NCBI RefSeq assembly: GCF_009695545.1
Contig: NZ_VUNS01000016.1
Location: 62,001-126,000 of the forward strand
Direction: 5' to 3'
Origin: Victivallis lenta
GTDB taxonomy: Bacteria > Verrucomicrobiota > Lentisphaeria > Victivallales > Victivallaceae
Length of the DNA: 64,000 nucleotides
Shown here in pieces: positions 44,849 to 52,959 of this stretch. The notes beneath the pieces were generated by a model. The model was not told the origin of the DNA and made no database searches. It saw only the letters and a list, made by a program, of their open reading frames with translations. Numbering within the stretch: position 1 is the first letter of the stretch; each line of letters begins with the position of its first letter. The position numbers and the translations under genes are program-made.

Positions 44849-46090
44849 ATGCCTCCCTTCTCCGGAAACAGAGCGGTCCTGCTGGAACTGGCCCTGAAGC
44901 AGACCCGTAAAATGTTCAATTCCCCCTGCGGCGGCCTGAAGCGTCCCTACCTTGATCCCGGCGCGCAATATGCCCGGAACCTGTGGGACTGGGATTCCTA
45001 CTGGGCTTCCGTCGCTTTGCTCGGCATCGCGGCGGAAGTGAAGGATGACGCGTTTTCCGCCGAAGTGCTGAAACACGCGAAGGGGTCGCTGCTGACCTTC
45101 TTCGACTATCAGGCGCCCGACGGCAGCATGCCGATCCTGCTCGACGGCGAGGGCGTCGATGTATTCGAAACCCGCAATCCCGGGCAGAATATCGGCAAGC
45201 CGATCCATGCGCAGTTTGCGCTGCTGCTCGAGGAACGCGGCGCGTTCGACGATGCGGAGAAAGCCATGCTGCTGCGCGGCCTCCGCCGCCTTGCCGAATG
45301 CCGGATCAACCGCTCCCGGAGCTGTCCGACCGGGCTTTTTGTCTGGAATACCGATGCGGCGATCGGCGTGGACGACGATCCGACCGCCTGGGGGCGGCCG
45401 CCGAAGTCGAGCGCGCATATCTACCTGAACTGCCTCGTCTACGCCGATTTTCGCGCCGCGGAAACGCTGGCCGGCCGGATCGGGGATACCGAAAGCGTCC
45501 GCTTTTTCCGGCAGGAGGCGGATGCGCTCGGGGAAGCGGTCCGACGCTGCTGTTACGACCGCCGCGACGGGCTCTACTACACGGTCGACGTGCAGTGCGT
45601 CACGACCCATCCGAAATTCAGCATGTTCACGCTGAATGCGTCGCTTGACGCATTCTGGCAGGTCCTGCCGCTGAAAATCGGGGCGTGGAGCTCGTTCCTG
45701 CCGCTCTGGTGCGGTATTGCGCGGCAGGAGGAGGCCGGGCGCATGGTGCGCGAGCACCTCATGAATCCGGCCCGTTTCTGGACGCCGTGGGGCATCCGCT
45801 CCCTCGCGGCGGATGAGGTTATGTACCGCCCGGACGATTCGCGCGGCAATCCGTCGAACTGGCTCGGGCCGGTCTGGATCATCAGCTGTTACATGGTCTG
45901 GCTCGGGCTCAAGCGCTACGGCTTCGAAGCCGAGGCGTCGCAGCTGGCCGAAAACGTGGTCGGCAATCTCGCGGAGGATTGCCGCCGGAACAATGTACTG
46001 CACGAATATTACAGCGGCGAAACCGGAGAAGGGATTTCAGGGCCCGGCTTCCTGAACTGGAATCTGCTTGCGCTGCTTATGCATCCGTGA
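44849..46090 (+). CDS. Cytosolic (alpha/alpha)6 glycosidase, GH63/GH37-like
   Basis: A 413-residue protein without a signal peptide. Its motifs match the (alpha/alpha)6-toroid clan GH-G (GH63/GH37-like): LWDWDSYWASVAL near the N-terminus with the candidate acid Asp, DPTAWGRPPKSSAHI, NPSNWLGPVWIISCYMVW and, near the end, HEYYSGETGEGISGPGFLNW with the candidate general base Glu. Related bacterial enzymes hydrolyse alpha-glucosides, mannosylglycerate or glucosylglycerate. The MlaA-fusion gene starts 17 bp downstream, apparently in one transcript. Confidence 0.78.
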   Translation: MPPFSGNRAVLLELALKQTRKMFNSPCGGLKRPYLDPGAQYARNLWDWDSYWASVALLGIAAEVKDDAFSAEVLKHAKGSLLTFFDYQAPDGSMPILLDGEGVDVFETRNPGQNIGKPIHAQFALLLEERGAFDDAEKAMLLRGLRRLAECRINRSRSCPTGLFVWNTDAAIGVDDDPTAWGRPPKSSAHIYLNCLVYADFRAAETLAGRIGDTESVRFFRQEADALGEAVRRCCYDRRDGLYYTVDVQCVTTHPKFSMFTLNASLDAFWQVLPLKIGAWSSFLPLWCGIARQEEAGRMVREHLMNPARFWTPWGIRSLAADEVMYRPDDSRGNPSNWLGPVWIISCYMVWLGLKRYGFEAEASQLAENVVGNLAEDCRRNNVLHEYYSGETGEGISGPGFLNWNLLALLMHP

Positions 46091-46107
46091 GGAAAAGGAG
46101 GGGCATC

Positions 46108-48231
46108 TTGAAAAACTCCTGGCTGCGATTGACCGGCGGAGTGCTGGCCTTGATTCTGTTTGCCGGCTGTGCTTCCACGCCGGAACCGGCTCCGGCCGAA
46201 GGGCCGTGGACGCCGAGCGAACTCTCTTTCGCCCTGTCCGGCAACGACCCGGTCGAGGGATTCAACCGTTCGATGTTCGCGGTGACGGATTTCGGCATGG
46301 AATATGTCGTCGATCCGCTCGGCCGGGTCTACACTTCGATCCTGCCGCGCCCGGCGATCGAGAAGTTCAACAATCTCTGCGTGAACCTGGAATTTCCCGC
46401 CCGGGCGTTCAGCTGTCTCGGCCGGGCCGAGTTCGGGGGGGCGTGGGATGAGCTCTGCCGTTTTCTGATCAACACGACCGTCGGCATCGCCGGATTGTTT
46501 GACCCGGCCGGAGCGTGGTTCGACATCTACTCGACCGAGTCGGATTTCGGGCAGATGTTCGCGGCGTGGGGAATCGGCCCGGGTTGCACGTTCATCCTGC
46601 CGTTCATGGCGTCGCTGAACGTGCGTGACGGCGTCGGCAGCATCTTCGACATGGCGTTCGACATCAAAACCTACATCCCGTACGCGGGTTACGCGACGGC
46701 GCTGAACCGGATGGTCGTGGCGCACCGCGCCTACGAAAAGGCAGTCGCCGGCAGTGCGGACCGTTACAAGACCTATCATGAGATGATGCTTCTGCGCCGC
46801 CAGCTGCAGCTGAAGATGTATTTCTACAATGCGCTGAATGCGGCGGCCGAGGCGCGCAAGGCCGGAATCCGGCCGGAGTTGCCGCCGGACCGGCCTGTCG
46901 CGCCGAAACCGGAGTGGGTGTCGGCCGGGTGGCGGACGATTCCGGGTTTCCGCCCCCAGAGCCCGGTGCTCGACACGATGCGCGTGGCGATGTTCCAGCC
47001 GCAGAATGACGACGACCCGTGGTATTTCCGGCTGTCGGTCTTCAACGGAGACTTCACGAAGAAATGCGATGTGCGGGAGATCCGGTTCGGGGAGGAGCTG
47101 CCGGCGCTGCGTTACGGCTACTGGCACGCGGAGAACGCCGCACCCGAAACGGCGGAGGAGCGCCTGCTCGCCGGCGAAAACGGCGGCCGGCCGGAGAAGC
47201 TGCTGGTTCTGCTGCCCGGCATCGGCGGCGATTACTCCGGCATGACCTCGACCGCACTGGCGGAGCTGTTTTACCGCAGCGGCTGGTCGGTCGCCGTGCT
47301 GGACAGCACCTTCACCTGGCAGTTCTACCTCGCCACCGGCGGCGTACTGCCGGGATTTCTGCCGCAGGACGGAGAAAACGTGCGCCGTGCGATCACCCTC
47401 GTGCTCGACGATCTCAAGCAGGAGAAACTGTTCAACCCGTTCCGGAGCCGGATCACCTTGATGGGGTACTCGTTCGGCGCGATGCACACGCTGAAGGTGG
47501 CGGAGCTGGAACAGCAGTCGAACCGGCTCTGCATCGACCGTTATGTGGCGATCAATCCGCCGGTCGATCTGCGTTATGCGATGAAGCAGGCTGATGCGCT
47601 GGCCGGAACCGGCCGCGACTGGGATGCGGACAAGGCCGTTGCGACGGTGATCGAAATCGCCGGCAAGGCGATGGGGGCGATGCAGAACCGTTATCCGTCC
47701 TACGATCCGGAGAATCCCGGCGAAGAGCCGTTCAACTACGGCGTCCCGCTCTCGCAGGAGGAGGCGGATTATCTGGCGGCGCTTTATTTCAAGACTTCCA
47801 TGCGCGGGCTCCTGTTCACGGCGCACCGCGAAAAGGGGCTGCCGGCGCTTTCGACGGAGTACCGCTGGGGCAGGCGCACCGAGCTCTACCGTGAAATCGA
47901 CCGGGTCGGCTTCGAAGAGTATGCCGAAAAATTCATCTCCCCGGAACTTGCGCCGCTGACGCTGGAAGAGCTTTATGCGCAGTCGAATCTGCGGGCTTTC
48001 GGCGATTCGCTGGCGGCGAATCCGAAGGTGCGCGTCGTGCACAGCGCGGATGACTTCCTGCTCTCCGGGGAGGATCGCCGTTTCCTGGACCGGACGTTCG
48101 GCGGGCGGCTGGTCTGGTTCGACTGCGGCGGACACCTCGGCAATCTGTATGTGAAAAGCGTCCAGCAGACGCTTCTTGATCTGGCCGAAACGAACAACGA
48201 ACCTGTCATTACGGAAAGTGTATGCAAATGA
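46108..48231 (+). CDS. MlaA (VacJ)-like lipoprotein fused to a serine alpha/beta-hydrolase
   Basis: A 707-residue predicted outer-membrane lipoprotein. The start is TTG at 46108 with AAGGAGGGG 4 nt upstream. A lipobox (ILFAGC, Cys21, Ala at +2) is followed by an MlaA domain, about residues 45-230: GNDPVEGFNRSMF, RFLINTTVGIAGLFDPAG, DFGQMFAAWGIGPGC and ILPFMASLNVRDGVGS. The C-terminal half, about 360-690, is an alpha/beta-hydrolase: LLVLLPGIGG, nucleophile elbow MGYSFGAM (Ser455), acid Asp648/649 in HSADDF, His676 in DCGGHLGN. MlaA normally removes misplaced phospholipids from the outer leaflet with OmpC/F; fusion to a potential lipase is unusual. It overlaps the next gene by 4 bases (ATGA). 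Confidence 0.85.
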   Translation: MKNSWLRLTGGVLALILFAGCASTPEPAPAEGPWTPSELSFALSGNDPVEGFNRSMFAVTDFGMEYVVDPLGRVYTSILPRPAIEKFNNLCVNLEFPARAFSCLGRAEFGGAWDELCRFLINTTVGIAGLFDPAGAWFDIYSTESDFGQMFAAWGIGPGCTFILPFMASLNVRDGVGSIFDMAFDIKTYIPYAGYATALNRMVVAHRAYEKAVAGSADRYKTYHEMMLLRRQLQLKMYFYNALNAAAEARKAGIRPELPPDRPVAPKPEWVSAGWRTIPGFRPQSPVLDTMRVAMFQPQNDDDPWYFRLSVFNGDFTKKCDVREIRFGEELPALRYGYWHAENAAPETAEERLLAGENGGRPEKLLVLLPGIGGDYSGMTSTALAELFYRSGWSVAVLDSTFTWQFYLATGGVLPGFLPQDGENVRRAITLVLDDLKQEKLFNPFRSRITLMGYSFGAMHTLKVAELEQQSNRLCIDRYVAINPPVDLRYAMKQADALAGTGRDWDADKAVATVIEIAGKAMGAMQNRYPSYDPENPGEEPFNYGVPLSQEEADYLAALYFKTSMRGLLFTAHREKGLPALSTEYRWGRRTELYREIDRVGFEEYAEKFISPELAPLTLEELYAQSNLRAFGDSLAANPKVRVVHSADDFLLSGEDRRFLDRTFGGRLVWFDCGGHLGNLYVKSVQQTLLDLAETNNEPVITESVCK

Positions 48232-48617
48232 AAACCGGAATTCTGATTGGAATCGCCGCGGCGGCGCTGAGCCTCTTCTGCGGCTGCGCCCCGACCATGA
48301 CCGTCAACGGGCAGACCTATACGATCCTCACGCAGAGCGAGGAGCAGGAGCTTGTGACCCAGGCGCGCCGCCTGCTCGGCAGACCCGGCAAAGCGCTGAA
48401 CAAAGAGGAGGTCCGGTTCGTCCAGAAGACCGACCCGGAGGTGAAGATCGAGTATCAGGGGGACCGTACCGGCGAAGCGCAGATCATCTGGAGGACTCCC
48501 GAAAAAATCATCACGATGCACTTCGGCGGCGAATTTCTCACCGAAAGAATGGGCTGGACGTTCGAGACCGAAAAGCCCATGCCGGAAGTGCTGAAATTCA
48601 TCCCGCAGGCGCAATGA
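48228..48617 (+). CDS. Small lipoprotein of unknown function
   Basis: A 129-residue protein with a lipoprotein signal (ILIGIAAAALSLFCGC, lipidation most likely at Cys20). I do not recognise the family. The mature part is charged, with a repeated TVNGQTYTILTQSEEQELV-like beta/helix start and a Trp-containing C-terminus (RMGWTFETEKPMPEVL). It starts inside the stop of the MlaA-fusion gene (ATGA) and its own stop overlaps the next start in the same way, so the three products are probably made in fixed ratio. ATG 48222 is a less likely start. Confidence 0.75.
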   Translation: MKTGILIGIAAAALSLFCGCAPTMTVNGQTYTILTQSEEQELVTQARRLLGRPGKALNKEEVRFVQKTDPEVKIEYQGDRTGEAQIIWRTPEKIITMHFGGEFLTERMGWTFETEKPMPEVLKFIPQAQ

Positions 48618-49738
48618 GCAGGCGGGACCGGAACCGGCAGCGGCTGCGGTTGTTGGCCTGCGGCATCGGAGCGGCGCTTCTGGCCGGCTGTGCCGCCGCG
48701 CCGCCGGAACCTTCGCCGTCCGCTGCGGCTGCGCCTCCCGCGGCCGCTGCGGTTTTCGATCTCGGCGCCGCGCTGGAACTCTCCGCCCGGCAGCAGCTTG
48801 ATGTTGAAACGGTCGAATCGCTGCGGCTGATCGCCGTGGAGCATGTCGACAACACGATGCTGCTGCGGCTGCCCGGAATCGCGGAGGAGTTTCGCGCCGG
48901 GGCGGATTATCCGGCTGACCGGCTGCCGGAGCTGCTCGACGGGGCGATCGCCTACAACCATATCCTCTCGGCGCCGCCCGGCAGTGATCTGGTCGAAGAG
49001 CGTCGTCCGCGCGTTGCGCAGCTGCTGGCATTCGCCGGAGCGGCGAACTGGTCGAAGCTGGCCGCCGTCCGCGAAAAAATCGCGTTGTCGGGCGGCATCG
49101 GCACGCCGGAGCTGCGCCAGGAGGAGGCGGATCTGCTGCTCGAGCTGCGGATTGCCACCGGGCTTGACACGGAAGCGCTCGAACAATTCTCCTTCGGCAG
49201 CCTTGCGGAGCCGCGGCTTCTGGTTTTCGACCTGGCCGGATTGCAGCGTTATGCGGCCCGCAGCCGGAGCGAGTCGACGCTGTCGGGATTCCCGGCGGAG
49301 CTGCCTGGAAAAGTTCGTGCCGGAATCGGTTCGGAGCGGGCGGAGATTCCGCTGCTGGCCGAATTGCTTTACCGCCTGCCGCGCCGGCTGGCTGAAGTGC
49401 AGCTGGCTTCGCCGAACCGCGACTGCCGCGAGCTGGCCGCCCTCGGTTCGGCGGTCGGAATCGCGTTCGAAATCGAGCTGTCGCTGAACCGCCTGCGGAA
49501 AGCATGGGATGAGTTCGAGCAGGCGAAACGGAAATCCGAGCTCACTCCGGATGCCGTCGAACTGAAGATGAAGCTGGCCGACACGCGGAAGGAGTGGCGG
49601 CTCGCCTACTACCGGCTGCTGACCGACCTCGGCTGCTCCGATCTGACTGTGCCGTTCGCTGCAAACGGCGGCAGCGGCGGAGATGAGCTTTCTCCGGAAA
49701 AAAGCCGGGAACTGCTCCGGCTGCTGCTGCCGGAGTGA
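48614..49738 (+). CDS. Helical lipoprotein, possibly TolC-like
   Basis: A 374-residue predicted lipoprotein (ACGIGAALLAGC, Cys about residue 20), with an Ala/Pro-rich linker and then long amphipathic helices. The segment FDLGAALELSARQQLDVETV and the closing heptad-rich LKMKLADTRKEWRLAYYRLL resemble the helical hairpins of outer-membrane efflux proteins of the TolC family, though beta-barrel strands are not obvious and the protein is shorter than TolC. It overlaps the upstream small lipoprotein by 4 bases. Its last 197 bases are antisense to the tail of the GIN-domain gene. Function unknown. Confidence 0.65.
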   Translation: MSRRDRNRQRLRLLACGIGAALLAGCAAAPPEPSPSAAAAPPAAAAVFDLGAALELSARQQLDVETVESLRLIAVEHVDNTMLLRLPGIAEEFRAGADYPADRLPELLDGAIAYNHILSAPPGSDLVEERRPRVAQLLAFAGAANWSKLAAVREKIALSGGIGTPELRQEEADLLLELRIATGLDTEALEQFSFGSLAEPRLLVFDLAGLQRYAARSRSESTLSGFPAELPGKVRAGIGSERAEIPLLAELLYRLPRRLAEVQLASPNRDCRELAALGSAVGIAFEIELSLNRLRKAWDEFEQAKRKSELTPDAVELKMKLADTRKEWRLAYYRLLTDLGCSDLTVPFAANGGSGGDELSPEKSRELLRLLLPE

Positions 49739-50531
49739 CTGCCGCAGGCGATGCTCCGGCCTGCCGCTTGCTGACCCTGGCGGAGCCGGAGAGCTCCAGT
49801 TTCACTTCCGGTTCGCCCGAATAGAGAATCCGGGAGGCGCCGCTCGCCTGAACGTCGAGAAGTTTCTCCGCCTCAAGCTGCACCGAACTTGAGCCGCTCA
49901 GGCGCAATTCCGCCGTCCGGCATTTCCCGATGGTCGCGGTGCAGCTGCCGCTCTGCTTCAGAACGAGCGTGCCGCAACTGCCGCCGAGTGCCAGTTTCGA
50001 ACTGCCGGAAAGCCTGAAATCGGCTGTTTCGAGTTTGCCGTCAAGCGTGAAATCGGTCGAGCCGCTCGCCCGGACCTGAAGCCGGTCGGCATCGAGCGAC
50101 GGAATCCGCACTTTCGAGCCGCCGGAGAGCCGCCACTCGGTTGCTGTTGTGACCTTTCCGCCGACCTCGACCGCGGAAGAGCCGGAAAACGCCAGTTTTT
50201 CCGGCATCTGCCGGAGCGACAGCCGAAGCTCCGGCCGCCTGCTCGGACGGATGGAGGCATTCACCCGCACGGTCAGAAGGCCGGCGCTGTTTTCCGCCGA
50301 GATCTCCGACTGCAGGTTTTCGTCGATGACGACGACGCACTGCTCCTGTTCCGCATCCGGCAGAATGGTGACCAGCCACTCTCCGCCGACCTTCAGCTGC
50401 GAAACGCTGCCGGGATCGACGTCCCTTTCCGTGATGACTCCATTGCCGACGACGGCGGGGGCGCCGCAGCCGCTGATGACTGACCAGGAAACCGTTCCGA
50501 GAAACGCGAAGAATCCGGCCGTTTTTTTCAT
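49542..50531 (-). CDS. GIN-domain (DUF2807-like) lipoprotein
   Basis: A 329-residue exported protein. The signal and lipobox (FLGTVSWSVISGC) precede a GIN-like beta-helix rich in repeated short strands: LAFSGSSAVEV, WRLSGGSKVRI, VRASGSTDFTL, FRLSGSSKLAL, LRLSGSSSVQL, KLELSGSARV. Such domains occur in putative adhesins and autotransporter-like proteins. The domain ends near SARVSKR, but the frame continues about 75 residues into sequence that is antisense to the convergent lipoprotein gene and looks non-native. The family's usual stop appears lost, or the assembly has an error. ATG 50531 has AAAGGG at 9 nt. Confidence 0.75.
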   Translation of the reverse strand: MKKTAGFFAFLGTVSWSVISGCGAPAVVGNGVITERDVDPGSVSQLKVGGEWLVTILPDAEQEQCVVVIDENLQSEISAENSAGLLTVRVNASIRPSRRPELRLSLRQMPEKLAFSGSSAVEVGGKVTTATEWRLSGGSKVRIPSLDADRLQVRASGSTDFTLDGKLETADFRLSGSSKLALGGSCGTLVLKQSGSCTATIGKCRTAELRLSGSSSVQLEAEKLLDVQASGASRILYSGEPEVKLELSGSARVSKRQAGASPAAVTPAAAAGAVPGFFPEKAHLRRCRRLQRTAQSDRSSRGRSAAGSRRAATPSACRPASSSVRRHPE

Positions 50532-50575
50532 GATGCCCATCCCTTTTTGAGAGCAGTGATGACTGGAACTGGTGT

Positions 50576-50604
50576 ATAATATACTTTGCCGAAGAAAAAT
50601 ACAA
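50576..50604 (-). promoter_or_regulatory. Promoter of the GIN-domain gene
   Basis: On the minus strand TTGTAT, 17 bp, TATTAT, 45 nt before the ATG at 50531. Confidence 0.55.
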
Positions 50605-50636
50605 TATGAAAAAGGGATTTTCCGCGATAAATGCCT

Positions 50637-50661
50637 CCGGCAGCGGCGGGAACGCTGCCGG
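50637..50661 (-). terminator. Hairpin terminator of module B
   Basis: CCGGCAGCG and CGCTGCCGG form a 9-bp stem with a 7-nt loop, 6 nt past the stop of the glycosidase at 50668. Only a short ATTTAT follows on the minus strand. Confidence 0.45.
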
Positions 50662-50667
50662 CGGCGT

Positions 50668-52959
50668 TTACTCCTGCCCGGTGATCTCAATGAACGGCGA
50701 CGGCCCTCCGGCAAAGTTCCCGGTGTCGAATTCGAGAAGCAGTTTCCCATCTTCCGTGCGGCGGATGGGAAGCCGCTCCCTGCGCTCCCCGTTGAACCCG
50801 AGAACGTAGGCGGCGGGATTGCGCAATGCACGGTTCCGGACGGCGATCTTCGCCCGGCCGGTCCGGATCAGCACCGGCAGTTCGCCGACCTCTTCGATCA
50901 CAGTCCGGTCCGGCGACGTGAAACGCATGCTGCTGTTGAGCGCATCGGTCGAATAGACGATGAGGAGGTGCGAGCTCTCTCCCAGCGGTTTTGCCGCATC
51001 GAGAGACGCCGCCGCCGTCATGGCCGGCACCGACGAACTCAGGACCTCAAGCTTATCCGCCCGTACCGGCAGCGTTTCCCGGACCAGCACCCCCTCCAGC
51101 CGCGGCGTGGTCAGCACAAAGCCGTTCTCCGCCGAATTCATGAGAATTTCGCCGGTGTCGCTCTCGTAGATGCGCCGGGCCATGTCGGTCCGGTTTTCCG
51201 CGGGCAGGATGCCGGTTTCGCGCATGACGGCGACGGCCTGCCGGTCCGGATTCCGGCTGTCGCGCGGAATCCGCCTGCCGCCGGGAAGGATGATTTCTTC
51301 GGCGCCGATGATGAGATCGGGCACATATTCCGCCCCGGCGGGCTGCGGCGTGCTCCCCTCGTATTTCAGCCCGATCCGGCAGAGCGGGAAGATTTTGCCG
51401 AGCACGGGGCTGAAATTCTCCGCATATCCGCGCCCGCGGTCGAACAGCTCCCGTTCAGTTACGCGAAGCTCGACCGTGTGCCGGGAAGGGGCGACGTCGC
51501 CGCGCAGGTAAGCGAGCGTGCTCACCACCTCTGAAGCGCGGCTGACCGGGTCGTTGCCGCAGTTGTTGAAGGAGACCATCGGCCGCTCCCCGAAAATCAC
51601 CGACTGATGGGCGAGGGAGATGCCGCCCCACCCCTGAAGCGCCGCAAAAGCCGGAACCAGCAGTCCCTGCTCATGACGGAAACGGTTCCAGAAGGCGTGA
51701 CCGTACTCCGAAACCAGATAGGGACGGTCGAGGAAGCGGGCGACCGCCAGCGCCCGGATGAAATACGCCTCCTTCCCGACCGCGCTGATCTGCTCGATCG
51801 TCGATCCTCTGCGGACCCATTGATTCGGATGCGCCCAGTAGCAGTGATTCGAAACGACGGGCATCATGCCGCGCAGCGGCGTCATATACTGGTACTGCTG
51901 CCAGTCCCAGTGCGTCGTCAGTCCCCTGTAGCCGGACTCCGCGACCACGCTTTGCAGGAATCCGGTGGTCTCCTGCTGGACTTCGAGGAAAAAGCGGGCC
52001 ATATCGCGCCCCATCTCTCCCCGGACGAAGTTTGGGCCGGTCAGCGGAGGCAGCGTGCCGAAGCCGGCGTCGGCCGGCAGTTCGACATCCTTCCAGGCCG
52101 CGCGCAGATTCTGCATCGTGCCGTAGCGCTTTTTCAGGTACGCCTGCCAGCCGGGGCCGAGGATTTCGTTGACCGGCCCGGTCGTATCGGCCGACAGGCG
52201 CGAGGCGTGGATGTTGATCGACTGTTCGTTGAACAGCACGAGGCAGGCGACCATCGGGTCCCCGGCCAGGGAGAGCCCGGTGTACGGATTCTCCGTCGTC
52301 AGCAGCTTCAGCACTCCGGCCCGGTAATTCGCGCGGAACGCCGGGTCGACCATGAGCCGCAGCGGGAACTCGTACGGCCGGAACGCCGTATTCCACGGAT
52401 AGGAGTCGGTGTACCCGGTGTTGTGGGTGCCGAGATCGAGCAGCACGTAAATGCCGCGCTCCTTGAGGCAGGAGAGGAAGTAATGAATCCGGTCGAACCG
52501 TTCCGCGTCGAACGGGATTGTCGCCGGATCGTCGAAAAGCGTGCCTTCGCGCTTTCGTTCGATCTTGCCCATTCCCATCAGGTAGCCGTCGAGAAAATGC
52601 AGCCGGACCATATTGTAGCCGTGCCGCCGGATCACGTCGGCATAGAGCGCAAGATCTTTTTTATCTTTCAGCTGGCTTTCGCGCATCGAAATGTCGGGCA
52701 GGATGTTGAAGCTCAGGAAACGGACGTTCCGCTCCGGCTCCCGCTCGAATGCGAAGCCGCCGGAGGCGGAGGCGATCACGCGCCCGGAGCTTCCGGCCGG
52801 AGCGCGCGGAACCAGGCCGGAGAAATCGAGCGCGCTGCCTTCGCGGATCACGAGGTCCGAAAGGTCGGCGGCCTTCCACTCTTCGCCGGGAAGGATGCGG
52901 ACCTCTCCGGCCGGAAGCAGGGCGGCGGTTAGGAACAGAACGGCAAGAAATGGTCTCAT
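50668..52959 (-). CDS. Secreted clan GH-A glycoside hydrolase (module B)
   Basis: A 763-residue exported enzyme with a signal peptide (FLAVLFLTAALLPAG). After a short N-terminal beta region, a TIM barrel starts near VRFLSFNILPDISMRE. Glu245 in VLFNEQSIN is the predicted acid/base and Glu418 in YLVSEYGHAFW the nucleophile, as in GH5/GH42/GH39-like enzymes. Other active-site-like segments are NMVRLHFLDGYLMG and VSNHCYWAHP. The C-terminal 280 residues are beta-rich accessory domains. GGAGG lies 7 nt before the ATG. It is the last gene of a four-gene minus-strand module. Confidence 0.8.
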   Translation of the reverse strand: MRPFLAVLFLTAALLPAGEVRILPGEEWKAADLSDLVIREGSALDFSGLVPRAPAGSSGRVIASASGGFAFEREPERNVRFLSFNILPDISMRESQLKDKKDLALYADVIRRHGYNMVRLHFLDGYLMGMGKIERKREGTLFDDPATIPFDAERFDRIHYFLSCLKERGIYVLLDLGTHNTGYTDSYPWNTAFRPYEFPLRLMVDPAFRANYRAGVLKLLTTENPYTGLSLAGDPMVACLVLFNEQSINIHASRLSADTTGPVNEILGPGWQAYLKKRYGTMQNLRAAWKDVELPADAGFGTLPPLTGPNFVRGEMGRDMARFFLEVQQETTGFLQSVVAESGYRGLTTHWDWQQYQYMTPLRGMMPVVSNHCYWAHPNQWVRRGSTIEQISAVGKEAYFIRALAVARFLDRPYLVSEYGHAFWNRFRHEQGLLVPAFAALQGWGGISLAHQSVIFGERPMVSFNNCGNDPVSRASEVVSTLAYLRGDVAPSRHTVELRVTERELFDRGRGYAENFSPVLGKIFPLCRIGLKYEGSTPQPAGAEYVPDLIIGAEEIILPGGRRIPRDSRNPDRQAVAVMRETGILPAENRTDMARRIYESDTGEILMNSAENGFVLTTPRLEGVLVRETLPVRADKLEVLSSSVPAMTAAASLDAAKPLGESSHLLIVYSTDALNSSMRFTSPDRTVIEEVGELPVLIRTGRAKIAVRNRALRNPAAYVLGFNGERRERLPIRRTEDGKLLLEFDTGNFAGGPSPFIEITGQE

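Follow-up and report, generated by a model that had tools for sequence, protein, structure and literature searches.

The gene at 46108-48231 on the forward strand of the window (the whole stretch of 64,000 nucleotides of Victivallis lenta DNA analysed here) encodes a predicted lipoprotein in which an MlaA domain is followed by an alpha/beta-hydrolase homologous to the lipase MlaY. This protein is a one-chain variant of the MlaYZ system and not a plain member of it, because its two parts form a single chain with MlaA first. PMC11131202, PMC11977310, PMC12569750 and PMC10474453 cite Guest et al. (2023, PNAS) as the source of MlaYZ; according to PMC11131202 and PMC12569750, MlaZ takes phospholipid from the outer leaflet and hands it to MlaY, the lipase that degrades it. 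We consider it probable that in the one-chain form the MlaA domain extracts glycerophospholipid from the outer leaflet and the tethered lipase destroys it, with no return through MlaC. The features of the gene and its product are as follows.

46095..46101, forward strand: Shine-Dalgarno AAGGAGG, with a 6-nt spacer before the TTG start, read from the sequence
46108..48231, forward strand: coding sequence of the MlaA-hydrolase fusion lipoprotein (one-chain MlaZ-MlaY), 707 aa, TTG start
46108..46170, forward strand: putative signal peptide, residues 1-21, lipobox FAGC, by sequence motif
46243..46803, forward strand: MlaA domain, residues 46-232, by PF04333, by sequence match to PDB MlaA chains and by fold match to 5nur_B
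46804..46962, forward strand: helix and proline-rich linker, residues 233-285, by the AlphaFold model, linker length in relatives and dN/dS
46963..48192, forward strand: MlaY-like alpha/beta-hydrolase, residues 286 to about 695-700, by Pfam, the model, Foldseek, VIA-align and MlaY homology
47464..47478, forward strand: nucleophile elbow G-Y-S-F-G, residues 453-457, an invariant Gly-x-Ser-x-Gly forming a strand-turn-helix in the model
48052..48054, forward strand: Asp649, triad acid, invariant, aligned with MlaY Asp388
48133..48135, forward strand: His676, triad base, within GGHLGNLY, invariant, aligned with MlaY His415

The frame is open throughout up to its stop codon. Cys21 (codon 46168-46170) is followed by Ala, with no Asp at +2, and the motif suggests that this cysteine is lipid-anchored. 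A rough lipobox pattern, which misses some true cases and serves only as a rough guide, was found in 44 of 83 fused MlaA proteins vs none of 19 split ones. Both halves are under purifying selection, with dN/dS values, for pairs with finite dS, of 0.03-0.14 in the MlaA part and 0.10-0.29 in the hydrolase. An assembly error or frameshift joining two genes was considered and rejected: many assemblies made independently carry it too, among them Victivallis vadensis DSM 14823 and the complete chromosome CP071032.1.

The MlaA domain is matched by PF04333 over residues 46-232 with an E-value of 9.6e-41 and 140 bits, against a curated cut-off of 25, and solved MlaA chains in the PDB are matched by sequence. 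An AlphaFold model of the fusion, built from a 56-row alignment, reached a mean pLDDT of 91.6 and a pTM of 0.91, and Foldseek superposed it on MlaA 5nur_B with a TM-score of 0.81 (target) and an rmsd of 2.8 over 198 columns. The preliminary description had read the product as one lipoprotein carrying an MlaA-like domain, expected at residues 45-230, and an alpha/beta-hydrolase; the intact frame, the Pfam match and the presence of both folds in the model bear this out. Residues characteristic of the MlaA family are conserved in this part of the fusion, which is presumably located in the outer membrane.

The hydrolase is matched weakly in a Pfam scan of the whole protein (PF00561, E 0.0044). Scanned alone, the domain scores 26.5 bits with Abhydrolase_6, against a curated cut-off of 26.3, and the same family matches 25 of 34 relatives at E 0.1 or better; the Pfam and PDB sequence searches gave no specific name for it. 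By structure, Foldseek matches the model to many hydrolases, lipases and esterases among them, and VIA-align gives Z-scores of 17.6-19.9 against esterases and lipases in alignments spanning about 220-290 residues. In the model, Ser455 (codon 47470-47472, aligned with MlaY Ser187), Asp649 and His676 stand at the canonical places of the hydrolase fold, and all three are invariant in 48/48 of the first relatives and in all uncut rows of the 56-row alignment. The serine and histidine are those proposed at the outset, when the acid had been left between Asp648 and Asp649; it is Asp649 that holds, position 648 being D or N, with Asn in one third of the rows. Homology predicts an active hydrolase.

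The link to MlaY emerged solely when plasmid records were searched at the protein level: tblastn with the hydrolase gave matches in Pseudomonas aeruginosa, Skermanella and Fusobacterium, and in each of these loci a lipase gene is directly followed by a VacJ/MlaA gene. From gene order and neighbours, we take the P. aeruginosa lipase-MlaA pair to be PA3238-PA3239 (MlaY-MlaZ). Its translated lipase has S, D and H at exactly positions 187, 388 and 415, the active-site numbers (Ser187, Asp388, His415) given for MlaY in PMC11977310, which confirms this identification. BLASTP aligned the hydrolase of the fusion with MlaY at E 2e-28 over 362 residues. A profile made of Verrucomicrobiota hydrolases only scored 166-223 bits on the intact P. 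aeruginosa, Fusobacterium and Skermanella genes, vs at most 33 bits on other hydrolases of the phylum. The MlaY triad shares its alignment columns with that of the fusion, S and H being present in 81/81 rows and D in 80/81.

Both systems therefore combine an MlaA-family protein with a homologous hydrolase bearing the same Ser-Asp-His triad, genetically linked and exported. MlaYZ differs in consisting of two polypeptides with the lipase gene first, whereas the Victivallis protein is one polypeptide with MlaA first; moreover, in P. aeruginosa it is additional to the canonical MlaA (PA2800) pathway, whereas no MlaC was found in the Victivallis genome. The earlier suggestion that a single lipoprotein could extract and cleave lipid gains support from the two predicted folds, the invariant triad and the MlaY homology. 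The partner imagined then, a PldA-like phospholipase, has to be abandoned in favour of the MlaY lipase of MlaYZ, as the PldA family PF02253 was absent from the window's genome and from all 31 genomes searched, and the fusion protein itself has no match to it.

The protein was matched in 80 of 100 genomes (that of the window and its relatives), and in most of these both domains lie in one long frame. In families f6, f7 and f8 and in genomes G021, G068 and G087 the halves are separate genes, MlaA first, and each split locus has at least one plausible start that leaves -37 to +29 nt between them. When the whole phylum was searched by profile, 106 of 388 genomes gave strong hydrolase matches, the best place in each scoring at least 118 bits, and a scan of 84,980 species genomes with an 8-row alignment as query returned 65 loci, whose titles, where a group was named, indicated Lentisphaerota, Verrucomicrobiota or Kiritimatiellota. 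The two-domain architecture looked for beyond the window's genome is old and widespread in the phylum, recurring throughout Victivallales, in other Lentisphaeria and in other Verrucomicrobiota. The preliminary description knew of no described case of the fusion, and none was found in the literature searched. The fusion is no rarity, however, being the form that MlaA usually takes in these lineages of the phylum. Wherever a contig end does not cut the locus, the hydrolase was always found alongside MlaA, in one chain or in the gene next to it; chance acquisition of a generic hydrolase was discarded on the ground that strong matches occur only with MlaA. Neither MlaA nor an MlaY-like hydrolase was detected in six Victivallaceae genomes of 92-98% completeness (G010, G025, G034, G045, G049 and G051), and some lineages therefore appear able to dispense with the system.

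The fusion is the only MlaA of the window's genome, as it is in most genomes. MlaC (PF05494) was absent from the window's genome and present in 1 of the 31 genomes searched, with the limit that an MlaC too divergent for this profile would escape detection. MlaE and MCE (MlaD) genes are kept in 30 of the 31; the window's genome has two of each, in two MlaE-MCE loci (G000:C1 at ~408-410 kb and G000:C8 at ~39.6-40.7 kb) where the MCE frames span 330-345 codons and MlaC is absent. The single MlaC carrier among the 31, G070, belongs to the window's order and has the gene beside a stand-alone MlaA without hydrolase. The phylum sample contains 153 genomes with an MlaA: 105 possess the hydrolase but not MlaC, 44 possess MlaC but not the hydrolase, one (G222) possesses both, each at its own MlaA locus, and three have neither, including G302 in which the contig ends inside MlaA. 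The Fisher value for this exclusion, 1e-33, is overstated, as genomes of one clade are not independent. Nevertheless, both kinds occur within family f19, within f39 and within the window's order. In 46 of 47 places, MlaC and a stand-alone MlaA are no more than 468 bases apart. Cleavage at the membrane may stand in here for recycling by MlaC. Given the persisting MlaE and MCE genes, some inner-membrane lipid traffic is possible, perhaps without MlaC. At two loci (L190, 1-1107; L188, 2377-4500) the gene after a stand-alone MlaA, which has MlaC alongside in G070, codes for an RND/HpnN-like transporter, another kind of partner for MlaA in this phylum.

A hydrolase tree rooted with MlaY proteins places the fusions of other Lentisphaeria and Verrucomicrobiota in one group and Victivallales in the other, the latter containing a clade of split pairs beside fused proteins; the frame of L050, counted as split on this tree, is truncated at the end of its contig. 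In the MlaA tree, the split pairs form a basal grade of Victivallales, so the fusion may have arisen twice. One fusion with a later fission and two fusions both fit the data, two being slightly favoured. The MlaA-then-lipase order of the fusion is that of the Victivallales gene pairs and the opposite of that in P. aeruginosa. MlaZ falls beside E. coli MlaA and not with the MlaA of the fusion, on deep branches that are weak and with three MlaZ rows; because MlaZ lies outside the MlaA group of the fusion, the pairing of lipase with MlaA could have occurred repeatedly, unless the deep branches are misplaced. One fusion from another class (L164; genome G352, family f39) groups inside the Victivallales fusions, a placement that suggests horizontal transfer or contamination; in other f39 genomes MlaA lies beside MlaC.

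According to the mechanism that we propose, the N-terminal lipid anchor and the MlaZ-type MlaA domain would seat the protein in the outer membrane, where this domain would remove glycerophospholipid from the outer leaflet. On emerging from the MlaA channel, the lipid would meet the covalently tethered, periplasmic MlaY-type serine hydrolase, which would cleave its acyl esters, and misplaced lipid would be broken down at the membrane, with no transport back to the inner membrane by MlaC. Outer-membrane location, phospholipase activity, direct hand-over and this physiological role are all deductions, and in the published accounts found hand-over from MlaZ to MlaY is itself a proposal. A wider reading, to which we give slightly less than even credence, is that across much of Verrucomicrobiota a channel-tethered lipase cleaving lipid in place has become a replacement for the MlaA-MlaC retrograde carrier, and not a supplement to it, through a fusion made perhaps twice.

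Other activities can be envisaged for the hydrolase. It might remodel lipids and not destroy them, as an acyltransferase or a deacylase-reacylase acting on outer-membrane lipids or lipoproteins: acyltransferases occur among alpha/beta-hydrolases, the fold does not fix the substrate, and the Foldseek matches include an acetyltransferase as well as a bacterial membrane phospholipase A (6i8w). However, PMC11131202 and PMC11977310 report that MlaY, the homologue already described, is a lipase that breaks lipid down, and we hold remodelling to be improbable. That MlaA would be reduced to a mere outer-membrane anchor for a hydrolase acting on a non-phospholipid substrate is the least credible proposal, even if fusion alone does not prove that substrate is handed over, for purifying selection is stronger on MlaA than on the hydrolase, the family residues of MlaA are conserved and the split versions retain a complete MlaA.

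A nutritional role, in which MlaA would admit foreign lipids or esters of host or plant origin and the hydrolase would digest them for uptake, would suit a genus with many gut metagenomes and, in the window, a neighbouring glycoside hydrolase that evokes a polymer-degrading life. Yet the same fusion occurs in non-gut genomes, such as bog and lake Verrucomicrobiota according to record titles, and its position as sole MlaA in most genomes suits housekeeping, which makes this role very unlikely. Extraction by MlaA followed by destruction by the tethered lipase is the reading that we hold most probable.

With MlaA/VacJ (PF04333) of the MlaA-MlaC-MlaFEDB system, the Victivallis protein shares the MlaA domain by profile and fold, but it carries a C-terminal hydrolase, and MlaC is missing from its genome and from nearly all relatives. 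PldA (OMPLA) has the job proposed here, the destruction of phospholipid misplaced in the outer leaflet, but it is an unrelated beta-barrel enzyme. A three-component MlaEFD without MlaA and MlaC was described in Veillonella (PMC10665443, Nat Commun 2023), and PVC MlaD is reported without a beta-barrel; Victivallis similarly has MlaE and MCE proteins without MlaC, but differs in possessing an MlaA, tied to a lipase. In the literature found, with Guest et al. (2023) outside its coverage, accounts of MlaYZ concern P. aeruginosa alone and no MlaA-lipase fusion is described. The kind of system is already known as MlaYZ; its one-chain form, phylum-wide spread and exclusion of MlaC were not found in that literature.

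That a covalent fusion is kept across a phylum, and that the split genes elsewhere are neighbours, argues strongly and independently for joint action of channel and lipase; the fusion also offers a single construct for testing hand-over. The mutual exclusion with MlaC suggests that bacteria maintain outer-membrane asymmetry in one of two ways, recycling or destruction, both fed by the same kind of channel, and it gives MlaA a role in bacteria devoid of MlaC.

Some plasmid loci deserve mention. On Skermanella plasmids (L196, L198) the lipase-MlaA pair has an RND efflux operon on one side and a TamB-domain gene on the other, flanks that suggest a lipid-transport cluster on a plasmid. In P. aeruginosa pPALO11 (L199), a frameshift interrupts the MlaY-like gene and the adjacent MlaA-family gene is intact.

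The fusion has no conserved neighbours beyond the nearest relatives. Directly upstream, a glycoside hydrolase of the GH63/trehalase kind (44849-46090, forward strand) is not conserved as a neighbour. Downstream, two genes (48222-48617 and ~48566-49738, both forward strand), the first overlapping the end of the fusion by 10 bases, putatively encode small exported proteins or lipoproteins, which gave no Pfam match and have counterparts in just the three nearest relatives (L081-L083). They are followed on the reverse strand (49542-50831) by a probable lipoprotein with a repetitive, beta-rich sequence resembling head-GIN/DUF2807 proteins.
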